Positions 1 to 27,188 of a stretch of 32,059 bases of DNA are shown piece by piece. Made by a program: the position numbers and the translations under genes. The notes beneath the pieces are model-generated. The model made no database searches. It saw only the letters and a list, made by a program, of their open reading frames with translations, and was not told the origin of the DNA. Position 1 is the stretch's first letter. Every line of letters begins with the position of its first letter. The DNA lies in the NCBI GenBank assembly GCA_015231775.1, contig JADGAY010000028.1:1-32059 (forward strand), in the 5' to 3' direction. Source of the stretch: Magnetococcales bacterium (lineage in GTDB: Bacteria > Pseudomonadota > Magnetococcia > Magnetococcales > Magnetaquicoccaceae).

Positions 1-191
1 AACGGGAGCGGCACGGCAAGCCCCGTCCGGAGCAAGACCACATAGGGGGGCGTTCTAAAGACGGCCCGTCCAGCCCCCGGGTAGGTCGCTACAGATGTCC
101 GGCAACGGCCATCGCAGAGGAATGACCGTCCCCCCGTCTCCCCACGGGACAAGGTTGCGGGGGACAAAACCCGGCTTACAGGCCCACTCCG
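1..191 (+). ncRNA. rnpB: RNase P RNA, type A, 3' portion (5' end outside window)
   Basis: This is the catalytic RNA of RNase P, which matures tRNA 5' ends. The sequence shows the conserved bacterial blocks in the right order: GAGCAAGACCA followed by a near-match to the usual AAATAGG (30-46), CCCGGGTAGG near 77-86, AGAGGAATGACCGTCC (116-131) and ACAAAACCCGGCTTA (164-178). These match the 3' half of E. coli-type RNase P RNA as I know it. The 5' half, with the other strand of helix P1, lies before the window. The 3' end is placed just before the T-run at 196-202 and is approximate by several bases. A 78-codon open frame at 95-331 overlaps this RNA and is not a gene. Confidence 0.95.
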
Positions 192-202
192 GTCCTTTTT
201 TT
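181..202 (+). terminator. T-rich 3' end of rnpB
   Basis: Seven Ts (196-202) follow the GC-rich 3' end of the RNase P RNA. No strong local hairpin is visible just before them, so the stem may be helix P1, whose 5' strand is outside the window. The 125 bases between here and the next promoter hold no recognisable gene, only the separated arms AGGCGCG and CGCGCCT. Confidence 0.45.
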
Positions 203-26377: not shown

Positions 26378-26668
26378 TCACGCTTGGGAGCCGCGCCCAT
26401 CCGGTACCAGACCGATCCGTGGCGCTGGCGCGCCTCTCAACAACCCTTCGGTCGAGAGATCCTCATCCAGAGCCTCCCAGTGGATGCCATACCCACCACC
26501 GCAGATCTCCCATTGCGCCCGCAAGGCGGGTGTCGCGCTTTCCAGACGGGGGAACCAGGCCAACGGCGCGGAAATGGTACGACCGTCCATCAGTCGCACG
26601 CTGATCTCCTCGTCGGTCAACGCCACATCCCGAACACGTTCATCAGCCCTCAAGGCTAAAATACCCAC
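26378..26668 (-). CDS. DUF2442 domain protein
   Basis: This is the only convincing minus-strand gene. The 96-residue product matches the DUF2442 pattern: RDVALTDEEISVRLMDGRTI, PLAWFPRLESATPALRAQW and GYGIHWEALDEDLSTEGLL. Function is unknown. DUF2442 genes usually follow a DUF4160 gene in a pair often suspected to be a toxin-antitoxin-like module. The start is GTG on the minus strand at 26668. The expected upstream partner is missing or reduced to a fragment. It converges on the RelA/SpoT-type gene. Confidence 0.85.
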   Translation of the reverse strand: MGILALRADERVRDVALTDEEISVRLMDGRTISAPLAWFPRLESATPALRAQWEICGGGYGIHWEALDEDLSTEGLLRGAPAPRIGLVPDGRGSQA

Positions 26669-26714
26669 GCCACGCCTCCATCAAGGGTTCGCGCCGTCCC
26701 AGCCGTCGGAAGCT
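26643..26714 (-). pseudogene. Possible C-terminal remnant of a DUF4160 gene
   Basis: On the minus strand, just upstream of and overlapping the DUF2442 start, a frame ending at 26643 reads SFRRLGRREPLMEAWRGYF followed by SLEG and a stop. The tail LMEAWRGYF resembles the LLEAWHxYF-type end of DUF4160 proteins, and DUF4160 normally sits exactly here. Upstream, the frame runs straight into the inverted-repeat element at 26709-26849, and no DUF4160 N-terminus is visible beyond it. The match is short, so this is a tentative call. Confidence 0.3.
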
Positions 26715-26881
26715 GTTTGGCACAAGCCAAACAGCCGATGCGGGCCATGCATGGCCCGCCAGATTGAGCAGCACTTTGAAAATCACGAATCGATTTGTTC
26801 GATTCGTGCTGGTTTGGTGTTTCCATTCATGGAATCACCAAACAGCCTCTTCTGAGGCGCGATCCAGTGTATCCTACTGGA
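26709..26881. repeat. Array of six hairpins; first five within a 141-base element with terminal inverted repeats
   Basis: Six perfect or near-perfect hairpins follow one another. (1) GCTGTTTGGC/GCCAAACAGC, 26712-26735, loop of four. (2) A 20-base palindrome, 26740-26759, half-site GCGGGCCATG. (3) CACGAATCGA/TCGATTCGTG, 26784-26808, loop of five. (4) GTTTGGTG/CACCAAAC, 26812-26843, with TTCCA/TGGAA nested inside. (5) GCCTC/GAGGC, 26845-26858. (6) TCCAGT/ACTGGA, 26863-26881. The outer ends, GAAGCTGTTTGG at 26709-26720 and the complement of CCAAACAGCCTC at 26838-26849, match at 11 of 12 positions, like terminal inverted repeats. I see no target duplication and no transposase. Confidence 0.75.
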
Positions 26882-27188
26882 GCAAACCGTAAAAAGAAAG
26901 CCGACACTCTCGGGGATCGCGAGCCTGTAGCTGCCAATGTTTTGACTCATCCCGCTGGCCCTCTCGACACCAAACGGGCCAGGATAGGGCCAAAACAATC
27001 AACGGCGCGTTTCTTGCATTTTGTTTCCAACTCCTCCCCCATGTCCAACGCACGACGCGCGGCACGGGTGACGAGGCGGGGATCACCTCCCCGACATGCC
27101 CGTGGGACGCGCCCGATTTCCGGCCAGTCGGAGCGCTCGGCGCCTTGAATTCAAGCTTGGCCCATCCAAACATCGACAAAAGGCTCTT
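26882..27188. other. Gene-poor stretch with further dyads
   Basis: No recognised gene. Two more dyads are present. CTGGCCC/GGGCCAG lies at 26955-26982 with a 14-base loop. A nested structure lies at 27063-27104: CACGGG pairs with CCCGTG, and inside it CGGGGA pairs with TCCCCG around TCACC. A minus-strand frame without a proper start (26947-27150, about 67 codons, containing RLVTRAARRALDMGEELE) looks protein-like but I cannot assign it. The dyad at 27063-27104 ends 84 bases before the SPOR gene and could belong to its leader. Confidence 0.45.

Follow-up and report, generated by a model that had tools for sequence, protein, structure and literature searches.

The hairpin-rich stretch in the window (here the whole 32,059-nucleotide stretch of Magnetococcales DNA that was analysed) contains a decayed member of a dispersed family of repeats of ∼142 bp. 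With a probability of nearly nine in ten, the element is a MITE that is moved in trans by an IS5-family (DDE) transposase and has an old, unusually constrained hairpin body. This assignment is based on multicopy dispersal, defined ends, target duplications and the presence in a congener of an IS5-family element with the same ends. The kind of element, an IS5-type MITE, is known; unusual is the conservation of its structure across distant bacteria.

Structure of the window copy

An earlier note on this DNA, made from the letters alone, described six hairpins lying end to end and imperfect 12-base terminal inverted repeats that enclose a 141-base unit. The terminal repeats pair at 11 of 12 positions, and homology to other copies is bounded at 26709 and 26849. 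Three hairpins with perfect ten-base arms (H1, H2 and H4) and a fourth with 14/15 pairing (H5) are present as described, and with H3, which is decayed here and well formed in most other copies, five hairpins belong to the unit (Table 1). The count of six was too inclusive, because homology to the copies stops at 26849/26850 and the hairpins at 26846–26857 and 26860–26883 are therefore border-straddling or flanking. The note also held the hairpins to be beyond chance, and this is borne out: the 191-nt hairpin stretch has a predicted folding energy of −90.7 kcal/mol versus −56.0 ± 4.7 kcal/mol for 200 dinucleotide shuffles (z = −7.4), with no shuffle (0/200) folding as well. A tRNA search at the hairpin stretch found none.

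On its two sides the element is bordered by a RelA/SpoT-domain gene and a SPOR-domain gene. A small DUF2442 open reading frame (26378–26668, − strand) is found just upstream of it. At the other end of the window, positions 1–194 (+ strand) constitute the 3′ part of a class A RNase P RNA gene, cut by the window start.

Table 1. Features of the element copy and its borders (positions in the window)
Feature	Position	Strand	Remarks
Mobile unit, decayed five-hairpin MITE copy, 141 bp	26709–26849	+	Shared with 40 other places in the genome; homology is bounded here
Left terminal inverted repeat, GAAGCTGTTTGG	26709–26720	+	Also 5′ arm of H1; family consensus GAGGCTGTTTGG
Right terminal inverted repeat, CCAAACAGCCTC	26838–26849	−	Overlaps 3′ arm of H5; reverse complement matches ends of the L156 IS5-family element
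H1, GCTGTTTGGC acaa GCCAAACAGC	26712–26735	+	Arms 26712–26721/26726–26735, 10/10; consensus helix
H2, GCGGGCCATGCATGGCCCGC	26740–26759	+	Arms 26740–26749/26750–26759, 10/10
H3, decayed here	26760–26778	+	Family consensus CAAATTGC gca GCAATTTG
H4, CACGAATCGA tttgt TCGATTCGTG	26784–26808	+	Arms 26784–26793/26799–26808, 10/10
H5, GTTTGGTGTTTCCAT/ATGGAATCACCAAAC	26812–26843	+	Arms 26812–26826/26829–26843, 14/15, one mismatch
Left target-duplication position, TCG	26706–26708		Differs from right side; duplication lost in window copy
Right target-duplication position, TTC	26850–26852		
Flanking DNA with small hairpins	26853–26883		Outside the unit; homology to other copies stops earlier

Copies in Magnetococcales genomes

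The earlier note proposed a search for further copies with variable flanks. In the organism's own assembly (G000; 3.82 Mb in 389 contigs, 89% complete), blastn reveals 41 places with 76–100% identity, different flanks and sharp borders at window positions 26709 and ∼26850. The true copy number is higher, as several contigs end inside a copy. Covariance models (R1, built from 30 copies, and later a broader model, R2) find about 60 copies in this genome (61 matches with R2); in the congeneric genome G007, which is 57% complete, they find about 40. The same element is also borne by a public contig of Magnetococcales bacterium nHA4bin8 (L132), and no match was found in the phages, plasmids and viral contigs searched. 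Copies in G000 are intergenic and are spread over many contigs on both strands. The family consensus is non-coding, and its 5′ and 3′ ends are GAGGCTGTTTGG and CCAAACAGCCTC. The closest pair of copies is 99.3% identical and the median identity is 87%; activity therefore appears to have been both recent and long-lasting. In-frame insertion into proteins was considered as well and is unsupported, the open reading frames that span old copies being without a Pfam domain.

Two variant arrangements are found in the same genome. One consists of two tandem copies with a common internal boundary and a different hairpin 4 sequence (G000:C4:15747–15999; L037:2048–2300). The other is a ∼30-bp TIR-loop-TIR palindrome flanked by TCA duplications, seen at G000:C205:5290–5325 (L145:991–1026) and at G000:C34:15542 (L137:2043). 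These palindromes probably arose by deletion between direct repeats, CCAAACAGCC, that are present in hairpin 1 and at the right end, and possibly they are minimal mobile units.

Target duplications and a likely helper transposase

Most copies are flanked on both sides by TNA triplets (TAA, TTA, TCA or TGA), and the 3-bp flanks are identical in 16 of 30 scorable copies. TNA is present at both ends of 19 copies, and in 16 of these the middle base is matched, compared with 5.8 expected from shuffling; 0 of 100,000 shuffles reached this value. The duplication corresponds to the IS1031 type, which we take to be a group within the IS5 family.

A candidate source of the transposition enzyme is found in G008, a genome of the same genus. 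It is a 913-bp insertion sequence (L156:1451–2363) with 17-bp identical ends, GAGGCTGTTTGGTGATT, and a TGA/TGA duplication. It encodes a single transposase of 263 amino acids that belongs to the IS5 family (NF033580, E 6.2e-71) and has DDE_Tnp_1 and DUF4096 domains. Read as its reverse complement, the right end of the small element is nearly the same as the left 25 bases of this insertion sequence, GAGGCTGTTTGGTGATTCCTTCATG, which identifies the likely type of helper. An IS5-family transposase would recognise the GAGGCTGTTTGG ends and duplicate the TNA target, and an element that has no transposase of its own would be mobilised in trans by such a helper. That the copies have in fact transposed, and which helper serves the host strain, we infer.

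The dispersed copies, varied flanks and TNA duplications, together with the congener's IS5-family element, agree with a small non-autonomous mobile element, which was one of four readings offered in the earlier note. Two of the others fit poorly. REP/BIME-type repeats that depend on a RAYT tyrosine transposase, or single-strand elements of the IS200/IS605 type, would also be hairpin-rich, intergenic and present in many copies, but would not explain target duplications with a matched middle base, nor terminal inverted repeats in common with a DDE insertion sequence, and the copies have no GTAG/CGTC foot tag; this reading is very improbable. GTAG/CGTC-tagged REP repeats are 20–40 bp, palindromic and intergenic (PMC3733652). 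The element resembles them in being palindromic and intergenic and differs in having terminal repeats and a target duplication. Least probable of all is an integron attC-like site that recombines as a folded single strand. The size range and the folding are appropriate for it, but the copies are dispersed in both orientations and not arrayed, they have target duplications, and five hairpins in a row are unlike the one bulged stem of attC.

The earlier note saw no transposase near the element, correctly; no gene with DDE_Tnp_1 was found anywhere in the assembly of the organism either, and given its 89% completeness and 389 contigs the helper may lie in missing DNA. Searches of this genome by family, protein and end pattern for a full insertion sequence with these ends gave only copies of the element, copies truncated at contig ends and the short TIR-loop-TIR palindromes. 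DDE_Tnp_1 was likewise not found in four other genomes (G030, G061, G063 and G095), whose assemblies are fragmented or incomplete. A helper candidate in G030, with inverted ends 864 bp apart, is no insertion sequence: the ends belong to two remnants of the element with a gene between them. A candidate from a genome of family f18 proved to be only a 126-amino-acid piece of a transposase that adjoins dnaA and has an element remnant at its side. The helper is thus demonstrated for one lineage only.

Both rejected loci have features of their own. At G030:C84:34037–34900 (L267:1038–1901), two degenerate inverted elements enclose an open reading frame that resembles a cyclic-nucleotide-binding protein, in the manner of a composite element. 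At L272:1164–1709 (G072), element remnants and a fragment of an IS5-type transposase adjoin dnaA.

Distribution and conservation of the hairpin chain

The chain of five hairpins is retained, with other stem sequences, by divergent copies from G000 and G007. A 23-base hairpin 2 pattern also matches Desulfarculales and deltaproteobacterial MAGs that display the same chain. With R2, these three MAGs have 38, 7 and 69 matches, a few of their copies having gone into building the model. By contrast, G030, which belongs to another Magnetococcales family, and the genomes of family f18 contributed nothing to R2. G030 has 35 matches. Outside Magnetococcales, 399 genomes were sampled from the phylum and 25 have matches, nearly all of them in f18. 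As a control, most genomes searched are empty at the same threshold. The assignment of f18 to the Neisseriaceae was considered and rejected, as no uptake sequences are present in 75 kb.

Minimum-energy folds of unaligned sequences show five hairpins in the same order across the lineages. Between eight lineage consensuses, H2 is the most conserved hairpin (92% of base pairs identical), and H1, H4 and H5 are the least conserved (41–46%). The sequence GGCAAAACCACG in hairpin 4 is common to G030, Desulfarculales and f18 copies.

The ends vary with the lineage. In G030 they are of the CAGNCTGTTGAAAAAGTC type, with 4-bp NTAN duplications (CTAG, TTAA, GTAA and GTAT; scored by eye in 5 of 8 copies). 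In f18 they are GGATACTCTGAAAA or GGAAGCGCTGAT, with YTAR duplications (TTAA, TTAG and CTAA), and Desulfarculales copies have at least two types of ends. In every lineage the outer arms of H1 and H5 coincide wholly or partly with the element ends. The lineage-specific ends and duplication types (TNA, NTAN and YTAR) suggest different helpers. The five-hairpin body belongs to an old family that is spread over several lineages of Pseudomonadota and Desulfobacterota, and the terminal repeats and type of target duplication are particular to each lineage.

MITEs are usually seen as short-lived deletion derivatives of one insertion sequence. Here the same five-hairpin body is shared by at least two phyla, where it is combined with three kinds of target duplication and with several different sets of ends, and it seems to outlive its helpers. 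Nothing on five-hairpin MITEs in these bacterial groups was found in the literature collection searched.

Base-pairing, loops and possible roles of the hairpin body

Covariation between the arms, another check proposed in the earlier note, is pronounced across lineages. In 78 copies there are 1080 double-change cells versus 313 in shuffles. The covariation score is 0.678, whereas shuffles score 0.170 and slid controls 0.122 at most; these values come from alignments that were fitted to the covariance model and are biased towards its pairing. Of the 414 pairs scored in the eight lineage consensuses, 405 are Watson-Crick and two are G-U. Within G000 paired changes are few (six pairs with a double change versus 3.2 in shuffles). 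Selection on the + strand RNA of each copy would be expected to raise G-U pairs above A-C mismatches. G-U pairs are no more frequent than A-C mismatches, either within the genome (29 and 35, respectively) or across lineages (100 and 103), and resident copies therefore decay as DNA. Taken with consensuses that are nearly devoid of G-U, this indicates that pairing is kept at the DNA level in the transposing lineage, by what seems to be either selection or arm-to-arm correction. Stem complementarity is upheld in the lineage that transposes, and resident copies decay neutrally.

Correction could operate by template switching, with one arm re-copied from the other and the palindromes of the MITE persisting without function. 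The almost purely Watson-Crick consensus stems are what such correction would yield, and the parity of G-U and A-C is consistent with it. On its own, however, template switching leaves unexplained the persistence across phyla of the hairpin order, the H2 sequence and the GGA loops described below, and single copies within one genome mostly show uncorrected mismatches. We regard it as a possible but doubtful account.

On the + strand, the apical loop of H2 contains GGA in 64 of 70 copies outside G000, and that of H5 in 63 of them; TCC is found in one copy each. The stems around these loops vary between copies, and the retention of GGA while stems change counts against mere arm-to-arm correction. 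The eight G000 copies of the youngest subfamily are without GGA in the H2 and H5 loops. Paired stem changes and one-strand GGA loops together point to constraint on the body.

The remaining reading of the earlier note was a structured RNA. As a full alternative, this would be a cis-regulatory or small RNA that is multicopy by chance, with selection acting on the RNA fold of each copy. The strong fold, the cross-lineage covariation and the strand-specific GGA loops favour it. The TNA duplications and shared insertion sequence ends, however, mark a transposon, copies within the genome decay with few paired changes, and there is no excess of G-U. Neighbouring genes, as defined by simple open reading frame calling, show no clear orientation bias (27/27 upstream, 32/21 downstream), and a search with the Rfam 15 covariance models gave two chance miRNA matches and nothing else at E ≤ 1. 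The structured RNA is therefore quite unlikely as an explanation of the family, although the GGA loops keep a role as RNA or single-stranded DNA alive.

Such a role could be that of a transposable RNA decoy, in which two GGA-loop hairpins of a transcript would serve as binding sites for a regulator of the CsrA/RsmA type or for some other protein that recognises hairpins. The loops are of the ANGGA type, two per element on one strand, and presumably resemble CsrA/RsmA-binding hairpins such as those of CsrB and RsmY/Z. ANGGA in the hairpin loops on one strand, as in CsrA/RsmA sponge RNAs, is present in the other lineages, and GGA has been lost from the window's own subfamily. The TwoAYGGAY motif (listed in PMC2864571) was considered as the family of the element and set aside, as there is no Rfam match. 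The decoy is unlikely; if it existed, an ancient element would have been kept across phyla with its transposon ends swapped to suit different insertion sequence helpers.

For the IS5-type MITE, the preferred roles of the body are a folded DNA intermediate or host tolerance to insertions, ahead of correction without function and of a protein-binding RNA. Most likely the palindromes are kept because the element would have to adopt a folded state on its way, or to be tolerated while folded.

Comparison with other MITEs

Like other bacterial MITEs mobilised by IS5-family elements, the element is short, non-coding and dispersed, has 3-bp TNA duplications and has its terminal inverted repeats in common with an IS5-family element. 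Its body sets it apart: five palindromes form a chain and keep their order and pairing across phyla, even though the ends, the type of target and the stem sequences change. Stable folding is predicted for transcripts of the Coxiella QMITEs and of other MITEs (reviewed in PMC10969869). By description, the QMITEs are similar in being MITEs with predicted structure, whereas the element described here has documented paired changes over several lineages.
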